Virus record (IMG/VR): IMGVR_UViG_3300033150_000980
Coordinates: 1 to 36,361 of that record
Reading direction: 5' to 3' (one strand)
Source: a virus
DNA: 36,361 bases
How positions within the stretch are numbered: the stretch's first letter is position 1; each line of letters begins with the position of its first letter. Position numbers and translations under genes: made by a program. The notes below the pieces were generated by a model. That model saw nothing but the letters and a program-made list of their open reading frames with translations, was not told where the DNA came from and made no database searches. Below, piece by piece: positions 1,379 to 36,361 of the stretch.

Positions 1379-3328
1379 ATGCCCTATACCGTATCAGGTG
1401 AACCAGGACAGGGGAGTACAACAGATTTCTCAGATAAATCTTACGATTACGAGTACCCTAATGGTCTTAATCTTAAGCCAGATTCAGAGTTTCATAAAGA
1501 GCTTAAGGGAAAGATCTTAACTCGTGCTAGGGAGTCTCGTAATGAAATGTCTAAGCGCTATCCTTCCTGGAATGAAGTAGATAAGGTTCTAACAACCTAC
1601 ATTCCTCTCAAAGATAAGGAAAGACAACTTAAGCAAAAGGATACTGCAAAACCTGTATCAATCGTCTTCCCTTATACTTATGCAATGCTTGAGGCACTTC
1701 TAACCTATCTTTCAATGGCTTTTTTCCAAGACCCTATGTTTCAATATGAAGGTGTTGGACCTGAAGATGTACAGGGTACTATGTTGCTTGAACTACTTGT
1801 CCGTCTTCATTGTATTAAAACTAAAGTCCCTCTCGCTGTACACACTGTCTTACGAAACTCCCTTGCATATGGAATAGGGCCTGGTGCACCTGGGTGGACA
1901 AAATTGCTTGGAAAGAAACCTATAAATTCTGAGGTAATCACTTTAGACAAATTCGGTAGAAAATCCATAAGTAGAAAAGTTACCTTCGTTGAATCTATGC
2001 TATTCGAGGGGAATAAACTAGATGCAATCGATCCTTACATGTACCTACCAGACCCATCTGTAAGTGCTCACGACACTCAATCTGGTGAATTCGTAGGTTG
2101 GGTTGTGCGTGATAACTTAATGAATATGCTATCTGAAGAACTCTCTAGCGATGGAGAAATCTTCAATGTGAAATATCTTAAGGCAATAAGGAATAAAAAA
2201 TCATCTTTTTCAATAGACCAATCTAGTCGCAACTTAAAATACGGAGGTCAAGATCCAAGAAATGTAACTGCAGCTTCTACAAATCATGTAGATACAATCT
2301 ATATGTATGTAAATCTAATCCCGAAAGAATGGAAACTTGGAGAAAGTGAATATCCAGAAAAGTGGCTCTTTGCACTCTCTTCAGATGAAGTAATAACATC
2401 TGCTTCTAAAGTTGACCATGCTCATGGTATGTTTCCTGTTGCAGTTGCTGCACCTGAGTTTGATGGTTTTTCACCTACACCTATTGGTAGATTAGAAATC
2501 CTACATGGTCTTCAACATACATTAGATTTTCTTTTCAACTCACATGTAAGTAATGTTCGTAAATCTATCAATGATATGTTTGTAGTTGATCCTTATCTAA
2601 TCAACATAAATGACCTTAAAGATCCTGAGCCTGGCAAACTTATTAGACTCAGAAGGCCTGCATGGGGAAGAGGAGTTGATAAGGTTGTACAGCAACTCCA
2701 GGTAAACGACATCACAAGGAATAATATAGCTGATTCTGCTTACATAACACAGTGGATGGATAAAATCTCTGGCGCTGACCAATCTATGATGGGCTCACTT
2801 CGACAAGGAGGTCCTGAGCGATTAACAAGAGGTGAATTTCAAGGGACTAGAGGAAGTGCTATTTCACGTTTGCAAAGGATTGCTTCAATCATAGGTATGC
2901 AGTTTATGCAAGATATAGGTTACATGTTTGCTGTTCATACACAGCAGTATATGTCACAAGATACTTATGTAAAAACCATTGGAAGGAATCAAGAAAAGCT
3001 AACCGAGATGTTTGGGAAACAGGAAAGAGTTCCAGTAACTCCTTTTGATTTATCAATTGACTATGATGTAATCGTTAGAGATGGAAGTATTCCTGGAGGA
3101 AACTTCAGTGAGATCTGGGTACAACTGTTTCAAATAATAGGTGGTTCTGAACAACTTTCTCAAGAATTTGATGTATTCAGATTGTTTAGTTATATAGCAA
3201 CTGAACTTGGAGCTAAAAATATCGAGGATTTTAAAAGGAATGTTAATAGAATCCAACCAACAGTAATGGGTAATGAAGAGACAATGAATGAAGTAGATAA
3301 AGGGAATTTAGTACCTACAGGAGTTTAA
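1379..3328 (+). CDS. Portal protein
   Basis: The 649-residue length and composition fit podovirus-type portal proteins, which form the dodecameric ring at one capsid vertex through which DNA enters and leaves. Supporting features are the N-terminal helical segment, the central DPYMYLPDPSVS region (near residue 220), the helical 'HVSNVRKSINDMFVVDPY' stem-type segment (about 390-406), and a Gln/Gly-rich loop with GSLRQGGPERLTRGE (about 475-490). It is followed by scaffold and capsid genes, the usual order. The ATG at 1379 follows AGGAG. Residues 398-432 are matched without gaps by the early 77-aa protein at 30772-31005. Confidence 0.88.
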   Translation: MPYTVSGEPGQGSTTDFSDKSYDYEYPNGLNLKPDSEFHKELKGKILTRARESRNEMSKRYPSWNEVDKVLTTYIPLKDKERQLKQKDTAKPVSIVFPYTYAMLEALLTYLSMAFFQDPMFQYEGVGPEDVQGTMLLELLVRLHCIKTKVPLAVHTVLRNSLAYGIGPGAPGWTKLLGKKPINSEVITLDKFGRKSISRKVTFVESMLFEGNKLDAIDPYMYLPDPSVSAHDTQSGEFVGWVVRDNLMNMLSEELSSDGEIFNVKYLKAIRNKKSSFSIDQSSRNLKYGGQDPRNVTAASTNHVDTIYMYVNLIPKEWKLGESEYPEKWLFALSSDEVITSASKVDHAHGMFPVAVAAPEFDGFSPTPIGRLEILHGLQHTLDFLFNSHVSNVRKSINDMFVVDPYLININDLKDPEPGKLIRLRRPAWGRGVDKVVQQLQVNDITRNNIADSAYITQWMDKISGADQSMMGSLRQGGPERLTRGEFQGTRGSAISRLQRIASIIGMQFMQDIGYMFAVHTQQYMSQDTYVKTIGRNQEKLTEMFGKQERVPVTPFDLSIDYDVIVRDGSIPGGNFSEIWVQLFQIIGGSEQLSQEFDVFRLFSYIATELGAKNIEDFKRNVNRIQPTVMGNEETMNEVDKGNLVPTGV

Positions 3329-20393: not shown

Positions 20394-22884
20394 TATAAAC
20401 CTCCTTTAATTTATCCGCTAAAGTTTCAATATCATTAGGAATATTTTTACTTTTAAATTCCTTCATTAAATCCTTACACATGTTGAATCCTATACATAAG
20501 TCTGCAGGAACTTTTATTTTGGTACTTCTCCAATACATAGGAGTCTCCAGGCTATTTTTAATCCTAATCAATATTTCAGCATGCTGTTTCCAAGGAAGAG
20601 ATAAAGGTATTTGAAAAACCACTGAATCATGCACTTGGGTTAATAATTCTACAGGTTTAAACCACTGCTGATTATCATAGATAAATTCAATACCTTGTTC
20701 ATTAATCTTATCAGCAGTTGTTGATTGAGGAAGTTGTGCATAGCCTTCACGATATGTAGCTTCACATGAAGCTTTAGTAACTTTTGGAGGATTAGGAATG
20801 ATAGGTCCCATGAAGATTCTTTTGCGCCCAAAGAGGTTTGTAACAGTTCTATCTTTCTTAAGCATAGACTGAATCAATGCTTGATAACCTTGTCTGATTT
20901 GAGGATAAGCTTGGTGAAGTTTATCTAATATATATTTAGATTCTTTTTCAGTTATCTCATTTACAAGTGCAAACTTTTTATATCCTGTATCGTAATTAAC
21001 TGCGTGATTGCACTTTTTACCGAAGTACCTTTCAGAATGTGTTCCATCACCTAGAGAACATGTTCCATCTTCATCTGTTACTTCATTATAAGACTTTCCA
21101 AAGATCATTGAAGCAGTAAGTCGGTGCATGTCTTTACCGGATTCAAAAGCTTCAATCATAGGAATTATTCCTCCAACGTAGGCAACAATTCTATTCTCGA
21201 TCTGGCTAAGGTCGAAACTGTACCCGATATATCCTTCATCAAAAAGGAAAAATCGTAGGAGATCATGTGGCCAGTTTTGTTGATTACCTCCAGTTCCAAA
21301 GATAGTTTCACCTGATGATAGTCTTCCTGTTTCAGCTCCAACTGGTTTATACGAACTACGATACCTTCCATCTTTATCTACCTTTCCTATGTTCAAATAA
21401 GTCGATTTACGTTTATTAGCATGTCTTAAGGCAAGGATAATTTTTGCTTCACTATGTCCTTTCCTTGCCAATCTTTTCATTGCATCTACATCACAAGTTG
21501 TAACCCACTGACCTTTAGAGTTTCGTTTTTTATAAGGTTTAAGACCAAGTGAATTATAGAAATATTCTTGAAGTTGATTCGGAGAGTTATAATTAAGTTC
21601 AAAGCCTACTTTTTTATTTAAAAGTTCTGCATTTTCCTCTATATAAATATCTATCTTTTTCTGCTCCTCCAACATCCCACTTACATCGACTTTAATTCCT
21701 CTCTCCATCATATAAAGTAAAGGTGGAATTAACTTCCTTTGGCGGTCATAAGTTTCAATATTCCCTTGACGTTTTAGATCTTCAATTTGCATAGGATGTG
21801 CAGCAGAGGTTGCAATAGCATCCATTCCATTATAAGTCCACCAGTTTTCCCAAGTTCCTCCACCAGCTGCCTTCATCCATTTCTTTCCATCTTCCTTATA
21901 ATAAGGTATATCAGTATGCATTGAGGTTACGAAGTCAAGACCTGCACGGAAATCTGGGAAAGAAATTTTCTGAGCAATCTGTGTGCAGTGTATTTCACCT
22001 AATGGCCGCATACCATATTTATGAAGAAGAAATTGACAATCGAAGATGAAATTAGCACCCCTTTTGGAAATTCTTTCTTCCTGCATAATTGCAGTAATTA
22101 ACAGCATTATTTCATATTCTTGTTCAACATTAAAGTAATCACCTTGAGAACAGCGAAAAGGGACACAAAAAGCATTGTTAGGATTAGTTGCAAAAGCAAT
22201 ACAGTCAAGTTCTTCATTAATAACTTCAATATCAATATCGAGAGTTGTACCTCTAAGGCCTTGTTCATAAGCATTCTTTAACAATGCTACAGATTCATTA
22301 TAAGATGGTTTAATCTTTACATTCCTCTCTTCACGTCTAAGTTCATGAAATTGAGATTCATGTTTAGCTCTTTTTAAATCAAAGCAGATTAAGGGTTTAT
22401 TCATGAAGTTGAACTTTGGTGGGATGAAAGTTGCAGGATGGAAGGTAGGTACTATCTTTAATCCAGGGATAAGGGTTGATTCTAATATAGACCCTCTCCA
22501 TTTAGTTATTCCCACACGGTTTGTTAGAGCAATTAAGGGTATATTGCCATAAGCTACAACAACATTTAGATTTGGAAGTGCTTCTAATTCCCTCTTTAGT
22601 TCATTAATATAGGTCCATCCATCTTCAGAGATAGTATACTTTCCATAGGAACCTATGTTTATATAATGAGAGATTGGGGCATCTAAATCTTTAATTACAT
22701 TTGTTAGATAGCATTCTCGTCTAATAAGTCCAGCTATTTGCATACAGGAATCTTGACCTTTTCCGGCAGGGCCTACAAATGGAGTTGGAGGATTCCATCT
22801 TATTTCTTGAACTCCTGGTTGCTCACCACATATAGCAAGAGTTGCATCTTTAGGACCTCTAGGTGGGACGTAGGTGTGTTTCAT
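20359..22884 (-). CDS. DNA polymerase I-type with N-terminal uracil-DNA-glycosylase domain
   Basis: 841 residues in three parts. Residues 1-185: family 4/5 uracil-DNA glycosylase, with GEQPG (20-24), the FVGPAGK loop (36-42) and HPAT (149-152). Residues about 210-370: 3'-5' exonuclease with D216/D218/E220, D282 (NFIFDCQF) and D355 (YNGMDA). Residues about 385-810: family A polymerase with motif A FDLSQIENR (D558), motif B K623/K624 to Y631 (KKCNHAVNYDTGYKKF) and motif C VHDSVVF (H752, D753). All catalytic residues appear intact. It is the replicative polymerase of this phage; the glycosylase part may check template uracil. A glycosylase-polymerase fusion is known in SPO1. The start shares ATGA with the preceding small gene. 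Confidence 0.93.
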   Translation of the reverse strand: MKHTYVPPRGPKDATLAICGEQPGVQEIRWNPPTPFVGPAGKGQDSCMQIAGLIRRECYLTNVIKDLDAPISHYINIGSYGKYTISEDGWTYINELKRELEALPNLNVVVAYGNIPLIALTNRVGITKWRGSILESTLIPGLKIVPTFHPATFIPPKFNFMNKPLICFDLKRAKHESQFHELRREERNVKIKPSYNESVALLKNAYEQGLRGTTLDIDIEVINEELDCIAFATNPNNAFCVPFRCSQGDYFNVEQEYEIMLLITAIMQEERISKRGANFIFDCQFLLHKYGMRPLGEIHCTQIAQKISFPDFRAGLDFVTSMHTDIPYYKEDGKKWMKAAGGGTWENWWTYNGMDAIATSAAHPMQIEDLKRQGNIETYDRQRKLIPPLLYMMERGIKVDVSGMLEEQKKIDIYIEENAELLNKKVGFELNYNSPNQLQEYFYNSLGLKPYKKRNSKGQWVTTCDVDAMKRLARKGHSEAKIILALRHANKRKSTYLNIGKVDKDGRYRSSYKPVGAETGRLSSGETIFGTGGNQQNWPHDLLRFFLFDEGYIGYSFDLSQIENRIVAYVGGIIPMIEAFESGKDMHRLTASMIFGKSYNEVTDEDGTCSLGDGTHSERYFGKKCNHAVNYDTGYKKFALVNEITEKESKYILDKLHQAYPQIRQGYQALIQSMLKKDRTVTNLFGRKRIFMGPIIPNPPKVTKASCEATYREGYAQLPQSTTADKINEQGIEFIYDNQQWFKPVELLTQVHDSVVFQIPLSLPWKQHAEILIRIKNSLETPMYWRSTKIKVPADLCIGFNMCKDLMKEFKSKNIPNDIETLADKLKEVYNGLTLDKQKIC

Positions 22885-23086: not shown

Positions 23087-24409
23087 TTACATCTTATACG
23101 TCTTCACCAAGAATGAATCTCTATACTCCTTGCTCAATTCAAACCCTGTACCAGCCATACCAAGTTCTTGTGCAGCTATTAATCCATTACCACTTCCCAA
23201 GAATGGGATAAGCACCCTCGAGCCTGAGAAAGCAAAAGTTTCATAAATCTCTTTCATCAGTTCAATAGGGCGTTCAGTTGGATGAGTTTTATATTGAGGT
23301 GGGACTGGAGAGAAATTGAAGATGTTACTTCTTCCTGGTTTAGCTAGTGCCGGACGTCCTTTCCATGCATAAAAGAACATTTCATAGGAATTAGCAAGAT
23401 GAATTTCAGGTCTTTTAGATTGACCTGAAGATTTAGTCCAAATGCCACACATTCGGTGAGCATTAAATCCTGCTTTAATAATTGCTTGATATATAGTTTC
23501 AAAGTGAGGCTCTGGAGCAAACCAGAATATAAGCCAGGAGTGTTCAGCCATCTTTGTGTAGACAGTTGATAACAATCTCTGTAAGAATCCTGGATAGTCT
23601 TTTTTAGAGACTTCATTATATGATTTTCCATAAGCATAATCTTTCTTTGCTGAACTCCCTTTATCAGAACCATCTATGTTAATGGCATAAGGTGGGTCTA
23701 TCTCCACAAGATGGAAGTATTCATCTGGGAGTTCTTTAGAACCTTCAAAGAAATCCTTTAAAACAAAGTTATTCATCAACTGCTGCTTATCAGGTGCAAT
23801 GCTTTCTTGTTCAATCTTCTTTGCAAGAACATCCTTAATTATAGTCTCATTCATTTTATCGAGAATCTTACTTGCATCTTTTTGTGTCTTGCATTTGTCA
23901 AAGATTCCAGGGAAAGCATCTCTTGCATCAGCTCTTCTAATTGCAGATGATACATAACCTTTAGATTTACCTATCATTTCTGCTGTCTCTTTCATTCCCC
24001 ATCCTGGACTATCAGATAATGTTGAAATCTTCTCACCATGAACCTCTTGTTTGAGCTTATGTATTTTACGAGTAAGTTCATCATTCTCATGAAATTCGAG
24101 ATCTTTTCGATGAAGATTTTCAGCTAGCTCAATACTCTTTATTTCAAGTTCTGTGATATCAGGTGGATATATTCTAACTGGTATTTCAGTGATATTGTTC
24201 CTAATTAATACAGTAAGCCTACGTTCTCCAGCAAGTAGTAAATAAGGTTTTTCCCCGTTGTTTTCTTTTACTGCTAAGGGAGAAATCAGACCTGATTCTT
24301 TCAAACTTATCTCAAGTCCATCTAGATCACCGAATTCTTTACGTGCTCTTTCGCTAATTTCTATTTCTGAAATAGGTATCATAGATACCTTGCCAATGTT
24401 GATAGTCAT
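23087..24409 (-). CDS. ParB-domain / DNA N-methyltransferase fusion
   Basis: 440 residues. Residues 1-100 are a ParB/sulfiredoxin-like nucleotide-binding domain with G61-E-R-R64, and about 135-160 (GMKETAEMIGKSKGYVSSAIRR) is its helix-turn-helix. From about 225 it is a DNA methyltransferase of the beta type: D238-P-P-Y241 first, then the SAM-binding F403-L-G-S-G, with HPTERPIELM before it. DPPY indicates amino-group methylation, N6-adenine or N4-cytosine. No restriction enzyme is adjacent, so it is probably a protective or regulatory orphan enzyme, with the ParB part possibly giving specificity. GAGGT precedes the ATG. An HNH gene lies immediately upstream. Confidence 0.88.
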   Translation of the reverse strand: MTINIGKVSMIPISEIEISERARKEFGDLDGLEISLKESGLISPLAVKENNGEKPYLLLAGERRLTVLIRNNITEIPVRIYPPDITELEIKSIELAENLHRKDLEFHENDELTRKIHKLKQEVHGEKISTLSDSPGWGMKETAEMIGKSKGYVSSAIRRADARDAFPGIFDKCKTQKDASKILDKMNETIIKDVLAKKIEQESIAPDKQQLMNNFVLKDFFEGSKELPDEYFHLVEIDPPYAINIDGSDKGSSAKKDYAYGKSYNEVSKKDYPGFLQRLLSTVYTKMAEHSWLIFWFAPEPHFETIYQAIIKAGFNAHRMCGIWTKSSGQSKRPEIHLANSYEMFFYAWKGRPALAKPGRSNIFNFSPVPPQYKTHPTERPIELMKEIYETFAFSGSRVLIPFLGSGNGLIAAQELGMAGTGFELSKEYRDSFLVKTYKM

Positions 24410-27929: not shown

Positions 27930-28208
27930 TTAATTATCAGTAACAGGTTGTTCATAACGTTCGTATTCTTTATGTTTCTTCTGTCTTATCATCTCTGTAA
28001 CTGCTTTTAATCGAGCTAATTGTAGTGGAGTTAATAATTGCTCCATTGCAGGAATATAATCATTGAATTCTTCTAGCTGAAATAGTTTATTTTGAAGATG
28101 GTTACATTCAAATCTACAATCATCAAGTTGTTTTTCAGCTGATATCCAAGAAGATAGAATGAAGATAATCATGATGATTATAACTATTATCATTGATAAA
28201 GTTTTCAT
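27930..28208 (-). CDS. Membrane-anchored small protein
   Basis: 92 residues. Residues 4-22 (LSMIIVIIIMIIFILSSWI) form a membrane span followed by a soluble helical domain with three or more Glu/Gln-rich heptads (QNKLFQLEEF). This shape fits an inner-membrane spanin or other small phage membrane protein, but its place next to tRNA-like and nucleotide genes does not favour either. AGGAG lies 7 nt before the ATG. Confidence 0.65.
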   Translation of the reverse strand: MKTLSMIIVIIIMIIFILSSWISAEKQLDDCRFECNHLQNKLFQLEEFNDYIPAMEQLLTPLQLARLKAVTEMIRQKKHKEYERYEQPVTDN

Positions 28209-28229
28209 CTTATTCTCCTAATAATTAAA

Positions 28230-28292
28230 AGCGAGCTGTCCGAGCGATTTGACCTAGAGGTTATCTACTCCCACCTTCTATCCTTGCTCGCT
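28230..28292 (-). ncRNA. Candidate structured RNA
   Basis: On the minus strand AGCGAGC at the 5' end pairs with GCTCGCT at the 3' end (7 bp), and an inner TAGAAGGT/ACCTCTA hairpin (7 bp with one bulge) can form. It is followed by TTTTAATT and lies directly after the tRNA-like gene. A T-loop is not convincing, so I do not call it a tRNA. It could also be a processing or termination element. Confidence 0.35.
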
Positions 28293-28310
28293 ACTTTTCA
28301 CTCTTTAGAT

Positions 28311-28457
28311 TGCTGGGAGCAGGATTCGAACCTGCATAACAAGTCCATTCTTGTTACTCATCGGTTTCGTAAGTGCGTCTACCTAATATGACAAGCTCTG
28401 TCTCTTTCAACAGCTTCGTGAAACTCTTTATGCCTGCCTAAATTCCGCCACCCCAGC
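28311..28457 (-). tRNA. tRNA-like gene (long variable arm, Leu/Ser type) with about 55 extra nt in the D arm
   Basis: On the minus strand the 5' GCTGGGG pairs with 3' TCCCAGC plus discriminator A. The T arm is perfect (GCAGG, TTCGAAT, CCTGC). A 7-bp variable-arm hairpin TAACAAG/CTTGTTA marks a type II tRNA, and TGGCGGAAT at positions 8 onward is leucine-like. Between GGAAT and TTAGGTAGACGC lies an additional segment, which itself starts with a similar TTAGGCAGGC and can fold on AAGCT/AGCTT. Without it the length is about 92 nt. I could not find an anticodon loop with U33, so identity and function are uncertain; it may be a pseudo-tRNA or intron-bearing. Confidence 0.55.
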
Positions 28458-28466
28458 AAGTTTCAT

Positions 28467-28895
28467 CTACCTCGGAACTATATACTTACGAATAGTATTC
28501 TGCTCTCCATAGGTATCATCTGTCTTTGTCCCAAGAATTGCCCAACCTTCAAGTCCAGGTAGATCATCTTCATAATCTATCGGACGTGCAAGATCAAGAT
28601 CGAAGGCTTTGGCAAATACCTTGATTGCATAAAGTGAACGTTTGTACTGCTTTTCAGTCATATTTCCCTTGTTAGGAATGTCGAAGAAGCCTGAAAATTC
28701 CTTTACCATAGGTGCATCAGCAATCTCGAAAAGTGGAGAGAAATATTTAAGGTCATTTCCAGTGTTTTTATCCACTCGTTCACCTTCTCTACATCCAATG
28801 ATGCGAAGTTTGTATTCTTCTCCAGCCTCAGCAACTGTAGGTTCTTCTGCACCTTCAATATCATCCATCTGTTCTGTTAAGTCTAGCATTGACAT
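28467..28895 (-). CDS. Single-strand DNA-binding-like protein (DUF669-like)
   Basis: 142 residues: acidic N-terminal tail (about 1-25), then an OB-fold-like core (EEYKLRIIGCREGERVDKNT, YFSPLFEIADAP, FFDIP) and a conserved type of end with LEGWAILGTKTDDTYGEQN. The pattern resembles phage DUF669-type proteins, which usually lie next to recombination ATPases and are thought to coat single-stranded DNA. Here the Sak4-like ATPase gene is immediately upstream in the operon. AGGAG lies 9 nt before the ATG; its leader contains a short tandem repeat and palindrome copy 9. Confidence 0.65.
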   Translation of the reverse strand: MSMLDLTEQMDDIEGAEEPTVAEAGEEYKLRIIGCREGERVDKNTGNDLKYFSPLFEIADAPMVKEFSGFFDIPNKGNMTEKQYKRSLYAIKVFAKAFDLDLARPIDYEDDLPGLEGWAILGTKTDDTYGEQNTIRKYIVPR

Positions 28896-28915
28896 AATTT
28901 GTTTCTCCTTTTTCT

Positions 28916-28947
28916 GAATTAAGTTGAATTAAAGTTGAATTAAAATT
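28916..28947 (-). repeat. Three tandem 10-11-nt units in the leader of the SSB-like gene
   Basis: Read on the plus strand: GAATTAAGTT, GAATTAAAGTT, GAATTAAAATT in direct succession. It lies 21 nt upstream of the start codon at 28895. Confidence 0.6.
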
Positions 28948-28982
28948 GGATAGTTATTTATTTAAAGTCTTTTATCACCTCC

Positions 28983-29005
28983 CTTCGTTTAATTTAAAAA
29001 CAAAG
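28983..29005 (-). repeat. 23-nt palindrome, copy 9
   Basis: On the minus strand CTTTGTTT, TTAAATT, AAACGAAG, followed by GGAGGTG. A strong ribosome-like site follows, but no long frame starts there; the next gene starts about 90 nt on. Confidence 0.75.
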
Positions 29006-29008
29006 CAT

Positions 29009-29794
29009 TTACAACTTCTCTTTATCCTGATAAGGCATCCCTGCTTTCTTCAAAATATGCTTTATGTCGGTCTTTTCATAAGTATCAAGCAATCCATCTG
29101 CTGAGAGTCTTGAGCGTGCAAGAAAAGTGCCAGTTGACTTTGTTAAAAGTCGATACTCAATTCCACTTGATGTTTCCTTAGGTGAGGTTACATAGATCTC
29201 ATCAAACATGAGAGGAATAGTTACCATACCTTGACCTGTTGTCATAAAGCGGAAGACAGTTCCTTTATCAGGATCTTCAACGAGTTTAAGATGGCCTTCA
29301 AAGATGAAATCACAAGGTAGATTTAGCATCTTTGAAATGTAGTTACGAATCATTGTTTTCTGTGGTGTGTAATCTTTTGTAAATCGAGGAGCTTCTCCAA
29401 CAATGCCAGCTTTTGCGAGAATATAATTCATTATTGCATCACTCCAGGAAGTTCCTGAACTTAACCAATAAGTGCCGAAGTGGTTGAAGTAACCGGAGGA
29501 AAGACGATATTCAAATTCTTTCTTCCAACATTTAAATTCAGATGGCTTTAAAGGGTCTTCAATTTCCCATCTTGTATCAGCAACTATCTCTCCTTTGTTT
29601 ATCCACTTTCTCACACACTTAGTCCCACCTATATCAAAAGAGTCAATATGTACAGGTTTACGAGCGGTGTGAGACATGAAAGTTTTTCCTGAACCACTTT
29701 CTCCAACGAGAAGGAGGTTAAAGGTTTTCTGCTTCTCATCTTCTTCATAGTATTTTCTTATCTTAGCAATTTCTGTTTTAATATCTAAAGGCAT
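29009..29794 (-). CDS. Sak4-like / AAA_24 recombination ATPase
   Basis: 261 residues. G31-E-S-G-S-G-K-T38 is a Walker A motif following FNLLLV; PCDFIFEGH (about 160) is the likely Walker B-type strand. The compact RecA-like core without a C-terminal DNA-binding extension is typical of phage Sak4 annealing or strand-exchange proteins, which work with an SSB. Here the SSB-like gene follows and a Cas4/RecB-like nuclease precedes, giving a complete recombination/repair module. The ATG follows AAGGAG. Confidence 0.82.
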   Translation of the reverse strand: MPLDIKTEIAKIRKYYEEDEKQKTFNLLLVGESGSGKTFMSHTARKPVHIDSFDIGGTKCVRKWINKGEIVADTRWEIEDPLKPSEFKCWKKEFEYRLSSGYFNHFGTYWLSSGTSWSDAIMNYILAKAGIVGEAPRFTKDYTPQKTMIRNYISKMLNLPCDFIFEGHLKLVEDPDKGTVFRFMTTGQGMVTIPLMFDEIYVTSPKETSSGIEYRLLTKSTGTFLARSRLSADGLLDTYEKTDIKHILKKAGMPYQDKEKL

Positions 29795-29797
29795 TAG

Positions 29798-30778
29798 TTA
29801 CTCCTTCCATTCTAAATTCATCTTATTTGTAGTCTCTATCTCTGTAGGATTCCAAAACTCTTGACGAAATCCAATAGGTGGCTCAAAGCAATGATGTAAA
29901 GGATTACTCCATGTTAGGCAGTAATCATGGAAAGGGCATCCCCAGTAATTAGTACAGCTCTTAGGGTTCTGTCTAAAAGCCATCATTACTGCATCTTCTT
30001 CTTTACAATCGAAGAGTCTTTCCATATCATTATCGAGGTCATCCAGAAGATCTACAGTGTTCCATAACCAAACACTCATTGCCTTATTATTCTTCCAAGC
30101 AGGAACACGTTGGAATCCTATGTTATAACCAGCAGGACGGAGTTTACTTGCACGCTTAAGGAAATTAAATTCAGTTCCGCAGAATTCAACGCCCTTGATT
30201 AATCCTGCTTTCATTTCCTCAGGATACATACAGTAAAGGCAATGTGTGTAAGTACCATTTTGCATAGATAGATGAAACTGTTCTTCCCATTGCCTTGAGA
30301 AGCGTTTTGTAGTCTTGTGGTCCCAAGAGAAGATAAATCCTTTTTCTTTATTCCTTAAAACAGAGTCCATTCGGAAGTAAAGAACACGCTTCTCATCAAT
30401 AGGAACTGAACCAGAAATTTCAGTGTAGAGAAGTTCATTGTCGATTAGGTCTTCTCCATACTTTCCGGCAAAGTTAGCTATCGCAAGGAGAACAGCGTCA
30501 GGAGTTTTTGGGAGGTAGAGTTCATCTGTGTCTTCAGAATATTCCTTACGATAATAACTTAAGAATGCATCGTAAGCACCTTGTATATTTTCATAGCCAT
30601 TAATTAGCATGTATTCACGAGCAATATGCCAAGATTGGCCGAAGTAGAGGTCATGTGTAGGTGTATCAATGCGCCAGCCTAAGATATGTTTGAAGAAATA
30701 AAGGCGTGGGCAAGAAAGATAATCATCTAATTTCGATGAGTCTCTAATGTTCCAGGTAGTGTGTGGTTGAATTAGCAT
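29798..30778 (-). CDS. Cas4/RecB-like PD-(D/E)XK nuclease with probable Fe-S cluster
   Basis: 326 residues. YLSCPRLYFF with C23, H51 (GQSWHIARE), D138 (FRMDSVL), D153 and K155 (SWDHKTT) and the Q-x-Y helix near 173-182 form a RecB-family nuclease. C275, C281 and C287 (SCTNYWGCPFHDYC) with C23 give the four-Cys iron-sulfur pattern of Cas4/AddB. It probably resects DNA ends for the Sak4-like ATPase next door. No CRISPR array is present in the window, so a CRISPR role is not implied. It overlaps the end of the portal-like peptide gene. Confidence 0.87.
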   Translation of the reverse strand: MLIQPHTTWNIRDSSKLDDYLSCPRLYFFKHILGWRIDTPTHDLYFGQSWHIAREYMLINGYENIQGAYDAFLSYYRKEYSEDTDELYLPKTPDAVLLAIANFAGKYGEDLIDNELLYTEISGSVPIDEKRVLYFRMDSVLRNKEKGFIFSWDHKTTKRFSRQWEEQFHLSMQNGTYTHCLYCMYPEEMKAGLIKGVEFCGTEFNFLKRASKLRPAGYNIGFQRVPAWKNNKAMSVWLWNTVDLLDDLDNDMERLFDCKEEDAVMMAFRQNPKSCTNYWGCPFHDYCLTWSNPLHHCFEPPIGFRQEFWNPTEIETTNKMNLEWKE

Positions 30779-31005
30779 TTTTTCATATCCTCCAATACTT
30801 TTCTAAGATCTTTTGGATCTATCTTATTAATGAATTCTGATAGTCTACCAGTTCCCCAGAAAGGTTTTCTCAAACGTAATACTCTTTTAATTCCTGCCAG
30901 TTCAATGTCTGACATATTAATAGCATATGGGTCTACTATTAATATATCGTTTTTTCTATCCATGGATAGTACTTCATAAAAGTTTTTATGTTGTACGTTT
31001 TTCAT
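30772..31005 (-). CDS. 77-residue protein resembling a piece of this phage's portal
   Basis: Residues 19-53 align without gaps to residues 398-432 of the portal encoded at 1379-3328. I count 16 of 35 identical, including VDPY, IN, D, RLR, P, WG and G, and many of the others are similar. The nucleotide sequences are well diverged, so this is an old relationship, not a recent copy. The last 25 residues are a charged helix not matched in the portal. GGAGA lies just before the ATG. The gene is in the early/recombination block and overlaps the nuclease start by 7 nt. Possible roles are portal assembly control or interference with a co-infecting relative's portal; both are inference. Confidence 0.75.
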   Translation of the reverse strand: MKNVQHKNFYEVLSMDRKNDILIVDPYAINMSDIELAGIKRVLRLRKPFWGTGRLSEFINKIDPKDLRKVLEDMKKC

Positions 31006-31016
31006 GTTTCTCCTTC

Positions 31017-31181
31017 TTATTTCTTCCGTATTAAGTGTAAATCAAGTAACTCCTGCGTCATTCGGAGGATGCGTTCACAGAGCTCCACAGTAGGTTCTGC
31101 TCCTGTCATATTTATAACATCATCTTTAAATTGCAGTGCTTCTTTTCTCCACTTCTTCAAAGTTCTCTCTGTAATTGACAT
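31017..31181 (-). CDS. Small helical protein of unknown function
   Basis: 54 residues (MSITERTLKKWRKEAL and on), charged and helical, with an excellent GGAGGTG ribosome site 8 nt before the ATG. It starts 7 nt after the previous stop. The N-terminus has the look of a short helix-turn-helix or coiled coil. No family can be named. Confidence 0.72.
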   Translation of the reverse strand: MSITERTLKKWRKEALQFKDDVINMTGAEPTVELCERILRMTQELLDLHLIRKK

Positions 31182-31188
31182 TAGTTAA

Positions 31189-31671
31189 TCACCTCCCCCT
31201 TCTAAAGACAATGTTCCTTTCTATATAATTCCCTTCCTTAAACAGTAAAAGATTAAGTTTCCCATGTTTAAATGCAAGAATTGAACTTGCAACTGAGTTC
31301 ATAACGTTAAGTGAACAAGGAACAAGGTAATCATCTTCGTGTGAATCTTTCATTCTGTCAGTGAACTGTCGGTGCATGTTGTTGACACTATATCGATTCA
31401 TAGGTCCTTCTGATAAGAAAATAATTTCACCAAATCTTTCTGCTGCAGAAAAATCATGGGCTGATCTATTTACAATAAATACCTTAGACATTTTATATCC
31501 TTTCATTTTCTTCCTCAATGTATCATAAGAAATCCCGAGTTTCAGAGCAAGTTCTTCATAACTTCCATAGCGCTTTCTTCCATTTCTAATCATTGCTTGA
31601 AGAGTTTTAAAGTGTAAACCATAGACTCCATTATAAAAATCTAATATTTCATTCCAGTCTGTTTTCTTCAT
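31189..31671 (-). CDS. Helix-turn-helix protein with conserved phage domain
   Basis: 160 residues. Residues about 25-60 (SYEELALKLGISYDTLRKKMKG) look like a helix-turn-helix. The remainder starts with MSKVFIVNRSAHDFSAAERFGE and continues with LVPCSLNVMNSVASSILAFKHGKLNLLLF, a pattern I associate with a stand-alone phage protein of unknown function, here fused to a DNA-binding region. An internal ATG at residue 61 may mark the older start of that domain. GGAG precedes the first ATG. It may be a regulator. Confidence 0.62.
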   Translation of the reverse strand: MKKTDWNEILDFYNGVYGLHFKTLQAMIRNGRKRYGSYEELALKLGISYDTLRKKMKGYKMSKVFIVNRSAHDFSAAERFGEIIFLSEGPMNRYSVNNMHRQFTDRMKDSHEDDYLVPCSLNVMNSVASSILAFKHGKLNLLLFKEGNYIERNIVFRRGR

Positions 31672-31674
31672 TTC

Positions 31675-32082
31675 TTAAGGCTCCACTAAATCATGATTAG
31701 GTGTACTCACAGATGATTTAGCTATATTAAGAACATTCAAAGGTGCAGACGAAGTTACTAATTCCTCACGGAGATGGTTTTTACTCCTTTTGTCTCCACT
31801 TTCCTGAGTTACAACTTCATGTTCTGCGTTTCCTTTGTTTATTTTTTGAACGAAGGGAAATTCATTGAAGAGTTTATCTATCTTCTTATCTATCTTCTTC
31901 TCATTTTCCTCATCAAGTATCTCAAACCCTCCCTTTGTTGAAACTTCCTTTGGTAATTCTGATTCATCACTTCCACAAATATGAGGAATTACCAAGTTCA
32001 TTACAGTTCCTTTACAGGGGTTAGCCTTTTGAATAACTTCAAGTTTCTTACCGCATTTTGCACAATAAAATTTCTTACTCAT
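31675..32082 (-). CDS. Zinc-ribbon protein with disordered tail
   Basis: 135 residues from the second ATG (32082), which has GGAGG at 9 nt; the ATG at 32088 is too close to it. YCAKCGKK, PC and HIC supply four Cys for a zinc ribbon (about residues 6-36). The remainder is acidic, Lys/Glu-rich and probably disordered. Palindrome copy 10 is contained within its coding region. No family recognised. Confidence 0.65.
   Translation of the reverse strand: MSKKFYCAKCGKKLEVIQKANPCKGTVMNLVIPHICGSDESELPKEVSTKGGFEILDEENEKKIDKKIDKLFNEFPFVQKINKGNAEHEVVTQESGDKRSKNHLREELVTSSAPLNVLNIAKSSVSTPNHDLVEP
31833..31855 (-). repeat. 23-nt palindrome, copy 10, inside a coding region
   Basis: On the minus strand CTTCGTTC, AAAAAAT, AAACAAAG followed by GAAACG. 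It encodes FVQKINKGN within the zinc-ribbon gene. An out-of-frame ATG follows after 12 nt but ends within three codons. Confidence 0.6.
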
Positions 32083-32392
32083 TTTCATCTACCTCCTTCA
32101 CTTTAATCCTCAATGCATACCAGGGTTCCTTTTCAAGGTCAATGGAAGCAATTTTTATATCTGAGATTTTCCCCTTCTTTAATCTTACTGCTAACCATTT
32201 CACTCATTGTTGCAGGGACATAACCAAGTATATAAGCATCATCATCTGTAAAGTCATTAAATAGGACTCTTACAGCAAATTTATCATACTTGTTATCAGG
32301 CTCAGGGATTAAGTCTAATTGTGTTCCTTCTTTAAGTCTATCTGTAATTCATAAAACTTGTGATATTTTACACCGGCTACATAGAAATTCAT
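32075..32392 (-). pseudogene. HIRAN-domain gene with two compensating frame breaks
   Basis: The ATG at 32392 follows GGAGG and encodes MNFYVAGVKYHKFYE, the usual HIRAN start. The frame then closes, but the next frame encodes DRLKEGTQLDLIPEPDNKYD and later ILGYVPATMSEM, the conserved HIRAN core (E-P-x-N-x-Y-D, L-G-Y-V-P). After about 210 nt the first frame resumes with SDIKIASIDLEKEPWYALRI and stops at 32075-32077. The total length (318 nt) is divisible by three. HIRAN domains bind DNA ends or stalled forks. Either a decayed gene or a double sequence error near AGATAGA and near GGGGAAAA. Confidence 0.75.
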
Positions 32393-32869
32393 TTAGATTA
32401 CCTCCATAAAATTTGTAGTCTTTCCATTAACAATATGGCTTATTGTAGCTTGATTACATCTAAACATCTTAGATATTTGTTTTTGAGTGAATTTTTTAGA
32501 TCTATATAATCTTTTCATCAACCAAGCTTCACCTTCATAGAAATTACTTGTTTTTATATTTTTACCAGAGCATTTTGAATTTCTGAGAACTGCATCACGT
32601 CTGTTATCAGACTGTGTCCCTAAATACAAATGATTAGGATTAACACATCTTTTGTTATCACATTTATGAAGAACTAATTTACCTTCAGGAATAGGCCCAA
32701 AGTGGATTTCCCAAGATATTCTATGGGCAGAAACTATTCCACAGAATCCATCACATATCTGTCCATATCCATGACCATTTTGAGAAGCTAACCAATTCCA
32801 ACACTCGTTGTTAGAACCTTTATCTACCTTCTCCCAGAATCTATTATCTAATGACATTTTCTTAGGCAT
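32393..32869 (-). CDS. HNH endonuclease with C-terminal helix-turn-helix (copy B)
   Basis: 158 residues, a clear relative of copy A (shared AHRISWEI, IPEGKLVLH, CDNKRC, HLYLGT, SDN). HNH residues are in VLHKCDNKRCVNPNHL; residues about 112-150 (FTQKQISKMFRCNQATISHIV) are the helix-turn-helix. GGAGG lies 9 nt before the ATG. It sits exactly between the ligase C-terminal part and the broken HIRAN gene, whose start codon abuts its stop and whose ribosome site lies within its last codons. It is probably a mobile homing endonuclease. Confidence 0.88.
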   Translation of the reverse strand: MPKKMSLDNRFWEKVDKGSNNECWNWLASQNGHGYGQICDGFCGIVSAHRISWEIHFGPIPEGKLVLHKCDNKRCVNPNHLYLGTQSDNRRDAVLRNSKCSGKNIKTSNFYEGEAWLMKRLYRSKKFTQKQISKMFRCNQATISHIVNGKTTNFMEVI

Positions 32870-32870
32870 T

Positions 32871-33356
32871 TTATAGCCCTCCTTTTATATCTAAAAATAT
32901 AGGAAATCTTGGTACTTTATTCTTAGCTGTTAAATGTTGATATTTAACCTTTACCATTTTACCTATAATAGAATCTTTTTGTGTCCATAGATTATATCTA
33001 TTATCATCAGTCATACCACTACCTACTGAGAATTGATTGCCCTCTTCATCCTCACAGACTAAAGCTCCCATTCTTTCTTTAGGAAAGCCTTCGATAGATA
33101 CTTCTTCTTTATATCCAACTACTTTATATTCATCCTCTTTTTTTCCTTTGAATTTCATTATGTAGGTACTTCTTTTTCGTATATATGGAGCTTCTAAATG
33201 TCTTACTATAATACCCTCGTAGCCCTTATCTATCATCAGATTATAGACCCTCATGATATCTTCAAGGTTTTCACAGATGTAAAAGGGTGCTCTTGTAATA
33301 GGAAATAGATCAGCCTTCTCAGGAACCATTTTGGTTAGATTAGATATCCTTTTCAT
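32871..33356 (-). CDS. ATP-dependent DNA ligase, C-terminal part
   Basis: 161 residues. Y46-E-G-I-I-V-R52 is ligase motif IV, M67-K-F-K70 motif V, and KVPRFPIFLDIKGG near the end corresponds to the motif VI region of the OB domain. It starts in an ATGA overlap with the N-terminal part, which could allow coupled synthesis of a two-piece ligase. The frame is open upstream of this ATG (ADKDQQMKRISNL), which suggests that the two parts were once one gene. Motif IIIa is missing between the parts. Confidence 0.8.
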   Translation of the reverse strand: MKRISNLTKMVPEKADLFPITRAPFYICENLEDIMRVYNLMIDKGYEGIIVRHLEAPYIRKRSTYIMKFKGKKEDEYKVVGYKEEVSIEGFPKERMGALVCEDEEGNQFSVGSGMTDDNRYNLWTQKDSIIGKMVKVKYQHLTAKNKVPRFPIFLDIKGGL

Positions 33357-33694
33357 CTGTTGATCCTTATCTGCTTGTGATCTGGATGGAGGTTTACTGT
33401 TCTTGAAACAATAGAGTGAATTTGTTCAAAGCTCATTCCATGACAGTAGAGTTCTCCATCCAGTTCATCTTTAATACCTAACTTTGACATAGCTTCAGTT
33501 ATGTGAGGTACTGAGAAAAAAGGATTTTCTTGAGAAGATAACAGTATATATCTAGGAGGTTCATTATTCATAGATATATCAACTGCACGACATCTTTCAC
33601 CGTCATACTTTGGTTGAACTATGTACGGAGGTTTCCACTTTGATAATCTCTTTTCCTCAAGAGGATAGCACAACATGATACCATGTCTACTCAT
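33353..33694 (-). CDS. ATP-dependent DNA ligase, N-terminal part
   Basis: 113 residues. K29-Y-D31-G32-E-R34 is the adenylation motif I with the nucleophile Lys; DELDGELYCHG is motif III. It ends after SIVSRTVNLHPDHKQIRINR, just before the place where motif IIIa (aromatic-x-x-F-D-I) should be. AGGAGG lies 6 nt before the ATG. With the next gene it accounts for nearly all of a small phage ligase, but activity is doubtful without motif IIIa and with the break. Its role would be nick sealing after replication. Confidence 0.82.
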   Translation of the reverse strand: MSRHGIMLCYPLEEKRLSKWKPPYIVQPKYDGERCRAVDISMNNEPPRYILLSSQENPFFSVPHITEAMSKLGIKDELDGELYCHGMSFEQIHSIVSRTVNLHPDHKQIRINR

Positions 33695-33929
33695 TAACTT
33701 CCTCCTTCATCACCTTGTGATAGAAAGTTAGAAGTTCTTGCCAAGAATTGAAATACTTACAATGTTTATCTTCTACATAAAATAAATATTCTATTTTAGT
33801 ATCTTTATGTAGATGGGTAACACAAGATATTTCTATGGATGTATATGTTTTGAATATTTCTTCTATATTATCTGATATAGAAGACATTTGCTTCAAGGTA
33901 GGATATTTAGTATCTTTTACTTTTTTCAT
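33687..33929 (-). CDS. Small protein of unknown function
   Basis: 80 residues, mixed alpha/beta with TSIEISCVTHLHKDTKIEYLFYVED and a helical end. AAGGA precedes the ATG and its stop overlaps the ligase start by 8 nt. No motif recognised; ligase adjacency hints at a replication-linked role. Confidence 0.65.
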   Translation of the reverse strand: MKKVKDTKYPTLKQMSSISDNIEEIFKTYTSIEISCVTHLHKDTKIEYLFYVEDKHCKYFNSWQELLTFYHKVMKEEVNE

Positions 33930-33969
33930 TTCCTTATTTTCCTTTCATTCTGTCTTTTGACAGGTTAAT

Positions 33970-34137
33970 CTATTTGATTCTATGCAATGTGCCTTCTTCT
34001 GATACAAAGAATTTATCTGATTGTTTTTCAGCCCATTCAAATACTCGATCCATTTCAAGAGTTCTAGCATGACCACCTGTACTTTTGTCATAAGTATTTG
34101 CTAACTCATTCCATGTTAATGCTTTACTAATATTCAT
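33970..34137 (-). CDS. Small protein of unknown function
   Basis: 55 residues (MNISKALTWNELANTYDKSTGGHARTLEMDRVFEWAEKQSDKF and so on), charged, with an N-terminal WNELANTYD helix. AAGGGA, from half of a palindrome-type sequence (AAACGAAGGG at 34144-34153), lies 5 nt before the ATG. Too short for common gene finders. Function unknown. Confidence 0.68.
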   Translation of the reverse strand: MNISKALTWNELANTYDKSTGGHARTLEMDRVFEWAEKQSDKFFVSEEGTLHRIK

Positions 34138-34189
34138 TTTATCCCTTCGTTTATCTGTCTTCTGGTGTCATTTTAAAGTTTTAAAAAAA

Positions 34190-34216
34190 GGTGGAGAGTT
34201 CATAACGCTCTCCACC
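34190..34216 (-). terminator. Strong intrinsic terminator
   Basis: GGTGGAGAG (34190-34198) pairs perfectly with CTCTCCACC (34208-34216), with a 9-nt loop. On the minus strand the stem is followed by seven U. It closes the unit of the 118-residue gene; on the plus strand only UUU follows. Confidence 0.88.
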
Positions 34217-34257
34217 TTTGGCTAAATTTCTAAACATTGGAGGATGTTATGGAAACT

Positions 34258-34614
34258 TTACTCAGCTGCAGCTGCTTTCAATTTCTCAAGGAAAGCTGCT
34301 CTCTCATCTTCATTCATAGTTTTGAACTTAGCAAGAGAAGCCTGAATAGGATCTACTCTCCCACCAGAAACAGCAACACCCATCTTTGCATTTCCAAGAA
34401 GGTCCTGAATCTCATCATCTGTTTTACCTGCAGTGTGAGCACGCCGGATTCCAGCTTGGAGTGTTACAATCCAATTAGCTAAGGCATTACTGTTTACAGC
34501 ATCTCCACCGAACATCTCAATGGACTCATCTACATCTTTACCATAGTCCACCATAATAACTGTTTCTCTCTTTAACTTAGGACTCTTTGCGCTTACTTCT
34601 TTAACATCTGGCAT
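34258..34614 (-). CDS. Probably abundant early protein of unknown function
   Basis: 118 residues. Lys/Glu-rich N-terminus, centre with strand-like TVIMVDYGKDVDESIEMFGGD and helix NALANWIVTLQAGIRRAH, and an Ala/Lys/Glu-rich C-terminal helix. The order is similar to small phage proteins that act as DNA- or RNA-binding factors, but I cannot name a family. AAGGAG lies 7 nt before the ATG. It has a consensus promoter (34680-34708) and its own terminator (34190-34216), unlike its neighbours, so it should be made at high level as a single-gene unit. Confidence 0.75.
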   Translation of the reverse strand: MPDVKEVSAKSPKLKRETVIMVDYGKDVDESIEMFGGDAVNSNALANWIVTLQAGIRRAHTAGKTDDEIQDLLGNAKMGVAVSGGRVDPIQASLAKFKTMNEDERAAFLEKLKAAAAE

Positions 34615-34679
34615 TTTCTTTCTCCTTTCTAAATTAAAAGTTTTTGGTTGTTAAAGGTTAATATTGATTAATAAATACC

Positions 34680-34708
34680 ATTATACATGAAGTATATACC
34701 ATTGTCAA
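34680..34708 (-). promoter_or_regulatory. Consensus sigma70 promoter
   Basis: On the minus strand TTGACA (34708-34703), a 17-nt spacer, then TATAAT (34685-34680): both boxes are perfect. Transcription should begin near 34673, giving a leader of about 60 nt for the 118-residue gene. Confidence 0.85.
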
Positions 34709-34730
34709 ACCATTTTTTGGTAAATATGCT

Positions 34731-34889
34731 TCACCTGATTGCAAAGAGTGAAGATATAAGCTTTTTGAAATCAGGAATTTCGGGTAGCTTTGGAAAATGT
34801 GCTGTACCTCTTCCAAGCATATACTTAGGCCCTCCAGACTTCCTTTTGAAGATCTTTCTCTTTCTATACGGTTTAAGTCCTTGTCTCAT
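34731..34889 (-). CDS. Small basic protein
   Basis: 52 residues, very basic at the N-terminus (MRQGLKPYRKRKIFKRKSGG), with a proline-containing middle and a short hydrophobic helix at the end. It could bind nucleic acid. GGGAGGTG lies 8 nt before the ATG, and the start shares ATGA with the previous small gene. The sigma70 promoter begins within 25 nt of its stop. Confidence 0.68.
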   Translation of the reverse strand: MRQGLKPYRKRKIFKRKSGGPKYMLGRGTAHFPKLPEIPDFKKLISSLFAIR

Positions 34890-35008
34890 TGTTCAATCAC
34901 CTCCCTCATTTCTTTATATGTTCTATATCTTTTATCACCTTCTTTTATTGATATAGCTTCTGTATCTATATCAGTAGATCTAATCAATTTTTGCAAGACT
35001 TTCTGCAT
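34886..35008 (-). CDS. Very small protein, 40 residues
   Basis: MQKVLQKLIRSTDIDTEAIS and on, charged and helical. AGGAAAG is close to the ATG and the stop overlaps the next start (ATGA). It may be the distal part of a longer gene whose start is at 35091, since that frame closes 9 nt before this ATG and the two join by a single shift. Confidence 0.5.
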   Translation of the reverse strand: MQKVLQKLIRSTDIDTEAISIKEGDKRYRTYKEMREVIEQ

Positions 35009-35016
35009 GATCTTTC

Positions 35017-35091
35017 CTAAACGTCCTGTGACTTAAGAACGCCTGTTCAATCCCTTTATACTTGGCTGTTAAGACTATTTCATACTGCATT
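35017..35091 (-). CDS. Possible 24-residue peptide or frame-shifted gene start
   Basis: MQYEIVLTAKYKGIEQAVLK with GGGAAGTG about 9 nt upstream; the start overlaps the preceding gene. Coding strength is hard to judge at this length. It could be the N-terminus of the 40-residue gene. Confidence 0.35.
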
Positions 35092-35406
35092 TAAATCACT
35101 TCCCTCATCTTCAAGTAATTTAATAAAAGCCTTGAGTTTATCTTTATCTTCAAGGATTTTCTCAAGGGATTTAACAATCCCTTCTTTTTTCCTCTTACTT
35201 TTCTTAATAACACTAACCTTTGTTGCAAAAGCGAGTTTCCTATCCGCTCTTTCATGCCGCTCTTTCCATATAGAGATATCATTGATAAGATTATTTTTTA
35301 CATCTGTTGCGATGCTTAACTTTGCAACAAGAGATTTTAAATTCTCTCTACACCAGAAGATTTCATCTTCTAAATCTGCTTTTTCTTCTTCCGTTAATTT
35401 ATACAT
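35080..35406 (-). CDS. Coiled-coil protein of unknown function
   Basis: 108 residues, almost wholly helical and strongly charged, with heptad-like Leu/Ile/Ala spacing (LTEEEKADLEDEIFWCREN, VKSLEKILEDKDKLKAFIK). No membrane span. GGAAGGA lies 6 nt before the ATG. Such proteins are common in phage early regions and often act as scaffolds or inhibitors of host factors, which cannot be shown here. Confidence 0.7.
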   Translation of the reverse strand: MYKLTEEEKADLEDEIFWCRENLKSLVAKLSIATDVKNNLINDISIWKERHERADRKLAFATKVSVIKKSKRKKEGIVKSLEKILEDKDKLKAFIKLLEDEGSDLNAV

Positions 35407-35419
35407 TTTAGTTCCTTCC

Positions 35420-35644
35420 TTATACGCTTAAGAGTTTCTTCGTATCTCTAGCCTCTTCACCTCTCCAAGTTTGAAGATTACCGAGAATGTATAAGATTTG
35501 TACTGAAATTACATCTGCAGAATATATATACAGACCAGCTTTTGCATAGGCTTTTGCATAGTTTAGCATACTCCCTTCTTTAGTCTTTACATTAAGAATG
35601 GTTTTACAAGCATCTTTAAATTCTTTCAATATCTTTGTACCCAC
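35420..35644 (-). CDS. Small protein with GTG start
   Basis: 74 residues. The GTG at 35644 is preceded by GAGGAGGTG, so the start is secure. Helical, with YAKAYAKAGLYIYSADVISVQILYILGN in the middle, resembling tightly packed small phage proteins encoded near terminase or replication genes. No motif recognised. Palindrome copy 11 lies directly upstream. Confidence 0.7.
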   Translation of the reverse strand: MGTKILKEFKDACKTILNVKTKEGSMLNYAKAYAKAGLYIYSADVISVQILYILGNLQTWRGEEARDTKKLLSV

Positions 35645-35659
35645 AGTTAATCACCTCCT

Positions 35660-35682
35660 CTATGTTTTTTAATTAAACGAAG
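35660..35682 (-). repeat. 23-nt RBS-associated palindrome, copy 11
   Basis: On the minus strand CTTCGTTT, AATTAAA, AAACATAG, then AGGAGGTG and the GTG at 35644. Confidence 0.72.
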
Positions 35683-35704
35683 CACCTTTTAGTTTAAACT
35701 TCCC

Positions 35705-35896
35705 TTATCTTTTCAAAAATCTATAAAATCCAGGATATGTTGAAAAGTTCAATCTTACAAGACCATCTTTAAGGGCTTCTTGTACAGAACCTTCATAATT
35801 TAATACTATATCTGTGAGCTTTATTTCAAGCTCCCGTTTTTCAGATTTGATCTCATTAATACGTTCAATAACACTGGTTATTTCTTCTTTTTCCAT
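35705..35896 (-). CDS. Small helical protein
   Basis: 63 residues. A coiled-coil-like N-terminal half (EEITSVIERINEIKSEKREL) is followed by a compact part ending YPGFYRFLKR. AAGGAG lies 10 nt before the ATG; palindrome copy 12 supplies that site. Function unknown. Confidence 0.7.
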   Translation of the reverse strand: MEKEEITSVIERINEIKSEKRELEIKLTDIVLNYEGSVQEALKDGLVRLNFSTYPGFYRFLKR

Positions 35897-35907
35897 TTCT
35901 TTTTCTC

Positions 35908-35930
35908 CTTTGTATTTTAATTAAGCGAAG
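35908..35930 (-). repeat. 23-nt RBS-associated palindrome, copy 12
   Basis: On the minus strand CTTCGCTT, AATTAAA, ATACAAAG followed by GAGAAA and the ATG at 35896. A much weaker relative is at 36179-36199. Confidence 0.72.
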
Positions 35931-35937
35931 CATCAAG

Positions 35938-36096
35938 TTACTCCTTTCCAGTCTTTAAAGATAACTTTCCAAGAAACCTATTGATTTCATCTCTGGCTAA
36001 ATCTTCAAGGGCTCTATACTCTCTTGTTTGACTATTACCTGTGATTTTTTCTGGCTTCATACGCTTTTTTATAAGTTTTTTCTGTTTCTCGCTCAT
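35938..36096 (-). CDS. Small basic protein
   Basis: 52 residues, basic N-terminus (MSEKQKKLIKKRMKPEKITG) and a helical end. GGAGGTA lies 7 nt before the ATG. The stop lies 7 nt from palindrome copy 12. Function unknown. Confidence 0.68.
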   Translation of the reverse strand: MSEKQKKLIKKRMKPEKITGNSQTREYRALEDLARDEINRFLGKLSLKTGKE

Positions 36097-36113
36097 CCTG
36101 TACCTCCAGGTTA

Positions 36114-36254
36114 TTAGACATTCTTTAATTTCTTCCTTATATTTTGAGGGTTATCTTTGTATTTTCTGGCCTTTTCACCTATTTCATAATTAAATAAAGC
36201 ATTTGTCGTATCTCTTGAGTTTAAACAAGAATATCTCTTCCTCAGAAAATGTCT
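36114..36254 (-). pseudogene. Frame-shifted continuation of the right-edge gene (possible)
   Basis: This frame is open for 46 codons and includes LFNYEIGEKARKYKDNPQNI, which looks like real protein, but it has no start codon or ribosome site. It may be the end of the gene at the right edge after a frame break near the TTTT run at about 36247-36250. Confidence 0.4.
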
Positions 36255-36361
36255 TTACTTTGCCTGGTATCTGTGCCCTTGCAGTTACACGCTGTTTCTT
36301 TAATGGTAAAGGTGGTTTGTAAATAGTTTTCTTTAATCTCCTTATACTTTCCATTTCATCT
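36190..36361 (-). CDS. Partial gene at the right edge
   Basis: The frame is open from the edge to TAA at 36190-36192. It is basic at first (IRRLKKTIYKPPLPLKKQR) and acidic at FSEEEIF. An ATG at 36354 is possible as start, but no ribosome site can be seen, so the gene may extend beyond the window. No family recognised. Confidence 0.5.
   Translation of the reverse strand, partial: DEMESIRRLKKTIYKPPLPLKKQRVTARAQIPGKVKTFSEEEIFLFKLKRYDKCFI

Follow-up and report, generated by a model that had tools for sequence, protein, structure and literature searches.

A stand-alone portal clip domain encoded in the replication/recombination modules of uncultured phages and its possible role as an early decoy for portal-sensing immunity

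The phage portal has an exposed tip, the clip, which is described as its docking surface for the terminase and later for the adaptor (PMC7617512; PMC6702177). Bacterial sensors of the portal have also been described, the sensed element being the clip in the SpbK/YonE pair and the stem, clip and wing in the EcAvs4/gp8 pair (PMC12847820). SpbK, a TIR NADase, attaches to the portal clip by its N-terminal domain; binding is weakened by the A291P mutation in the clip, and activation of SpbK needs clustering on the portal 12-mer, while EcAvs4 contacts the stem, clip and wing of the portal monomer (PMC12847820). Phage Phi3T is shielded from SpbK by the early counter-defence gene nip; counter-defence genes sit in early operons, and early counter-defence hotspots have been described (PMC11984713). 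A phage decoy made of the clip was not described in the papers found, and stand-alone portal clip proteins were not described in the open-licence literature searched.

We analyzed a stretch of viral DNA of 36,361 nucleotides (IMG/VR record IMGVR_UViG_3300033150_000980, positions 1 to 36,361), hereafter the window. One of its genes encodes a protein of 77 aa, termed here the solo clip, with the translation MKNVQHKNFYEVLSMDRKNDILIVDPYAINMSDIELAGIKRVLRLRKPFWGTGRLSEFINKIDPKDLRKVLEDMKKC. The ORF looks like a real gene: it is preceded by a ribosome-binding site, its 3' end shares 7 bases with the start of the exonuclease gene, and it has orthologues (Table 1). Both the good ribosome site claimed in the initial annotation and the placement of the gene in the recombination block, on the strand opposite to the portal gene, are borne out by the coordinates. 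Several other features of the replication genes were recorded. The ATP-dependent DNA ligase of the window is encoded by two overlapping ORFs (33353-33694 and 32871-33356), adjoined by an HNH endonuclease gene (32393-32869); in relatives, the ligase is a single ORF (L113:9652-10506, L115:210-1085). A ParB-like domain fused to an N6/N4 DNA methyltransferase is encoded at 23087-24409, a gene which adjoins DNA polymerase in most relatives, and DNA polymerase A with an N-terminal domain of the uracil-DNA-glycosylase superfamily (PF03167, E 6e-10) is encoded at 20359-22884.

Table 1. Coordinates of the portal, of the solo clips and of the features around them (positions in the window unless a contig is named).
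Feature	Coordinates	Strand	Evidence or remark
Portal protein, 649 aa, SU10_portal family	1379..3328	+	PF23899 E 7.7e-10; 8zkk E 1.7e-66; Foldseek E 8e-29
Portal codons 398-432, copied segment (clip by topology)	2570..2674	+	Between predicted helices; high conservation
Sak4-like ssDNA-annealing protein gene	29009..29794	-	phrog_124 E 1.7e-18
PD-(D/E)XK exonuclease gene	29798..30778	-	PF12705 E 8.5e-6; phrog_1218 exonuclease E 1e-16
Solo clip gene, 77 aa	30772..31005	-	ORF; orthologues at 61% full-length and 58%
Solo clip codons 19-53, homologous to portal residues 398-432	30847..30951	-	BLASTP; portal-only profile
Ribosome-binding site AAGGAG 5' of solo clip ATG	31010..31015	-	Direct sequence reading
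Conserved upstream gene, 54 aa (SITERTLKKWRKEAL...)	31017..31181	-	Homologues beside exonuclease gene in L117, L121, L116
Perfect sigma-70 consensus promoter TTGACA-17-TATAAT	34680..34708	-	12/12 matches; upstream of minus-strand gene block
Solo clip	L113:7829-8083	-	Near exonuclease/Sak4 genes
Solo clip	L122:4995-5240	+	Near exonuclease/Sak4 genes
Solo clip	L147:419-649	+	Near exonuclease/Sak4 genes
Solo clip	L165:9540-9776	+	Between ParB-methyltransferase and DNA polymerase
Solo clip	L178:9547-9789	+	Between ParB-methyltransferase and DNA polymerase
Solo clip	L181:3707-3973	+	Behind primase gene

BLASTP of the 77-aa protein against the portal of the window gave a gapless alignment of residues 19-53 to portal residues 398-432 with 16/35 identical and 26/35 similar positions (E 2e-10), so that the count and the coordinates given in the initial annotation were right. 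The ungapped BLOSUM62 score of the two segments was 96, against a mean of 29, standard deviation of 4 and maximum of 56 in 3000 composition-preserving shuffles; the next best among 296 stop-to-stop frames in the window scored 37 in the same comparison with the portal. The profile comparison that had been proposed as a check gave a significant portal match: an independent model, made from the clips of portals only, recovered the 77-aa protein with E 5.5e-10, and the match was limited to portal residues 398-445. Chance similarity is ruled out by the shuffled controls together with this portal-only profile match. The protein also matched the portal clip in 35/35 related phage contigs tested. At the nucleotide level, the solo clip and the portal segment share 58/105 positions, with 21, 25 and 12 identities at the first, second and third codon positions, respectively, which places the similarity at the protein level.

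Most of the portal residues kept in the 77-aa protein are invariant or nearly so in 63 related portals, namely N398, D399, V403, D404, P405, N409, D412, R423, R425, P427, W429, G430, and G432. The conserved P416/P418/G419 turn is lost, in which G419 is invariant and P416 nearly invariant in portals. The portal of the same phage ranked only 35 of 61 portals by similarity to the 77-aa protein; this rank and the diverged nucleotide sequences rule out a recent duplication of the phage's own portal. The description of the protein as a mimic of the phage's own portal is thus justified at the sequence level as regards mimicry, but not as regards its own portal in particular.

The closest solved relative of the portal is that of Vibrio phage VP1 (8zkk), which was also the top Foldseek match. 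In the predicted portal structure, helices 369-401 and 452-465 flank the copied segment and are followed by a long helix 484-524. This order equals the stem–clip–stem–long helix order of the T7 portal (PMC6702177), and portal residues ~400-450 are therefore taken as the clip. The copied segment is, in the predicted model, the portal clip between two stem helices, assigned by topology and not by atomic detail because the confidence of the model inside the clip is low. In 63 aligned portals, few stretches of 35 residues are as highly conserved as this one, with a mean entropy of 0.55 bit vs 1.17 bit overall. A LAGLIDADG homing endonuclease (5502-6182; PF03161, E 5e-22) is inserted shortly before the gene for the major capsid protein (6305-7549; SU10_MCP). 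In the virion module of the window, one very large gene is represented by three ORFs (13290-15206, 15184-16380, and 16488-18707), at the place of which a single ORF of 1815 aa is found in a relative (L139:3960-9407); either real splitting or assembly indels may account for this.

The model of the 77-aa protein (mean pLDDT 59) contains strands 12-16, 21-24, and 41-44 and helices 31-37 and 64-76. The clip of T7 is described as three strands and one short helix (PMC6702177); the predicted elements are compatible with it, the model being too weak for a claim on the fold. Comparison with the portal's own clip, modelled below pLDDT 50, likewise sets one weak model against another. Foldseek with the 77-aa model gave no significant PDB match, as expected at this pLDDT. 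The Pfam portal family (PF23899) matched neither this protein nor six other solo clips described below; PHROG and NCBIfam gave no match for the solo clips except the leader of one of them, and PADLOC, which covers defence rather than anti-defence, gave none for the solo clip. The protein lacks stem helices, wing, and crown. As judged from its sequence, it is a domain homologue of SU10-type portals and not a portal. With the SU10/VP1-type clip (PF23899; 8zkk) it shares homology over about 35-50 residues, the same conserved residues and, as far as predicted, the placement of strands and short helix; it differs in being free-standing, in the lost turn, in its own termini, and in its location in the replication/recombination module. 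At the level of sequence homology, it is well supported that the gene codes for a free-standing portal clip domain, to which it adds N- and C-terminal parts of its own.

A total of 11,042 small ORFs in non-redundant DNA of related phages (~2.6 Mb) were searched with profiles made solely of portals. Seven dispersed solo portal fragments were recovered, all within portal residues 376-445 and all in replication/recombination modules. With a clip-only profile, all seven had E <= 0.002, the next candidate having E 0.64. Besides the window, they belong to six phages (L113, L122/L246, L147, L165, L178/L138, and L181/L139). By these profile matches, solo clips are recurrent stand-alone portal clip domains, at least seven of which occur in related uncultured phages. 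They differ among phages in locus and N-terminus, and that of L181 contains the first helix of the stem together with half a clip, the second half being absent. A twin-arginine-like leader was found in 3/7 solo clips and is absent from the protein of the window; the leader of L181 passes the NCBIfam TAT_signal_seq cut-off, while those of L165 and L178 are below the Pfam cut-off. The motifs in these three leaders are RRNFFK and RRSFLK, and a lipobox-like VVSC is also present in L165.

Solo clips may have as few as one to three independent origins, since the members beside exonuclease/Sak4 are interrelated and so are the two ParB/polymerase members. In a tree built on 35-40 clip residues, the solo clips fall together with a support of 0.72; the long branches make this tree compatible with one or several origins. 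A single metagenome (3300035698) is the source of three of the seven contigs. For 20 other large gene families (TerL, capsid, polymerase, primase, and others), no small fragments were found in another module, a comparison in which clip fragments are easier to detect because of the high conservation of the clip; small fragments of five virion or tail genes do occur, but within or beside the virion module. Within the reach of the searches made, we failed to find a solo clip in annotated phage genomes, plasmids, or a species-level genome collection, and no relative was found in cellular genomes by two scans which demand exact short patterns. Plasmid matches at E 3-8 were taken as chance. TerL of G001 and G003 gave a weak clip-like match that comes down to a DLEDPE...R stretch, and a weak match in the huge phage LR756511 fell inside a different frame of 179 aa; both were rejected, and a C-terminal portal fragment of L061 was left out of the solo clips as a split portal gene.

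Four of the seven solo clips adjoin exonuclease or Sak4 genes, three of them with overlapping reading frames, as would be expected of a clip fold exapted to serve the neighbouring recombination proteins, e.g., as a small adaptor. However, the other three adjoin polymerase/ParB-methyltransferase or primase genes, and exonuclease and Sak4 are present without the clip in most relatives, which makes this explanation improbable.

A full-length orthologue of the solo clip, 61% identical, was found directly upstream of Sak4 in IMGVR_UViG_3300027834_000018, a phage that shares 44%, 43%, and 52% identity with the window in exonuclease, Sak4, and portal, respectively. A syntenic orthologue with the same two neighbours was found in IMGVR_UViG_3300013117_000046 (58% over 50 residues). 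The initial annotation had named absence from all relatives as a refuting outcome, and the gene is present in related phages. It had also held that the gene looks maintained, and this agrees with an orthologue 61% identical next to neighbours of ~43%, with intact frames, and with a nucleotide sequence diverged from the portal. For the pair with IMGVR_UViG_3300027834_000018, the NG86 estimates were dN 0.23 and dS 1.21 (ratio about 0.19); the ratio is indicative only, as saturation is nearly reached at synonymous sites and the bootstrap gives no defined upper bound. Short, patchily spread fragments, one without the second half of the clip, might also be non-functional relics of portal gene fragments shifted by illegitimate recombination. 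The full-length identity in excess of that of the neighbours, the ratio of about 0.19 (its upper bound being unusable), the intact frames with ribosome sites, and the lack of comparable relics from the 20 other gene families all speak against this, and we regard a relic as the least probable of the explanations considered here.

The promoter upstream of the minus-strand gene block sits about 65 bp upstream of the gene 34258-34614, and no minus-strand terminator-like site was found in 28000-36361. Judging from promoter and strand, the solo clip is probably an early product of the recombination operon and precedes the late portal. We consider most likely, with a probability of roughly 40%, that it is an early monomeric decoy for portal-sensing bacterial immunity. 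Made before the late portal, the monomeric solo clip would occupy the clip-binding site of SpbK-like TIR NADases or Avs4-like STAND sensors; a free clip would present no 12-mer ring, clustering of the sensor would be prevented, and cell suicide would not be triggered. The clip homology, the recurrence of solo clips, and the promoter with no minus-strand terminator-like site behind it argue for a decoy. About 7 of roughly 50 related contigs with a replication module carry a solo clip, and in relatives without it the same slots are empty or filled by unrelated small genes; this patchy presence in variable slots fits accessory counter-defence genes. Nip of Phi3T is likewise a small early protein silencing a portal-sensing suicide system (PMC11984713), an activity which for the solo clip is hypothetical; Nip binds the TIR domain, and SH3-like domains are predicted in it (PMC11984713), whereas the solo clip would bind the portal-sensing part as a copy of the clip. 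A recurrent class of phage proteins with a single clip domain, blinding portal-sensing immunity as early decoys, is a still more tentative proposal.

Several observations argue against a decoy. The twin-arginine-like leaders would take three solo clips out of the cytoplasm and so away from where SpbK or Avs4 act, and no cytosolic role explains the leaders of L165, L178, and L181. The P416/P418/G419 turn is lost in the solo clip. Avs4 binds monomers, so a free clip might activate it rather than block it. Moreover, the clip also docks the terminase and adaptor, and the same anatomy fits a packaging regulator, which is the main rival to the decoy because the same surface is needed. As such, a free clip would bind the large terminase or the head–tail adaptor early and keep this partner off portals until heads are ready, thereby restraining premature packaging or the terminase nuclease. 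The T7 clip residues Q307, R309, R310, and K313 contact the adaptor (PMC6702177), and the clip docks terminase (PMC7617512). A basic RxRR/K stretch is kept in 6/7 solo clips, and a standard TerL lies upstream of the portal in this phage family. The patchy distribution and shifting location are, however, unlike a core regulator, the leaders in 3/7 solo clips do not fit it, and hhalign of the portals against T7 gp8 alone gave no mapping of the basic stretch onto the T7 belt. Overall, packaging regulation appears rather unlikely, although it ranks next to the decoy.

The T7 clip strands also form inter-subunit contacts (PMC6702177), and a free clip could enter such clip–clip contacts, slowing assembly of its own portal ring or poisoning the portals of co-infecting relatives, roles close to those put forward in the initial annotation. 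Since the solo clip shows no greater similarity to its own portal than to those of other phages, the latter are as plausible a target as its own. On the other hand, the producer would itself be poisoned unless expression ended before the late phase, and the leaders of three solo clips do not fit, so we hold this to be less likely than packaging regulation, if not as improbable as a role for the neighbouring recombination proteins.

The portal is one of a small number of indispensable structures that let bacteria recognise phages. If the solo clip is indeed a decoy, it would be, as far as found, the first phage decoy described that is made from the very structure being sensed, and would point to strong selection by portal-sensing immunity in the hosts of these uncultured phages. 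If it instead binds the terminase or adaptor, it would represent a new way of timing DNA packaging. Under either reading, the solo clip offers a small, testable reagent with which to probe the clip, on which terminase and adaptor dock.
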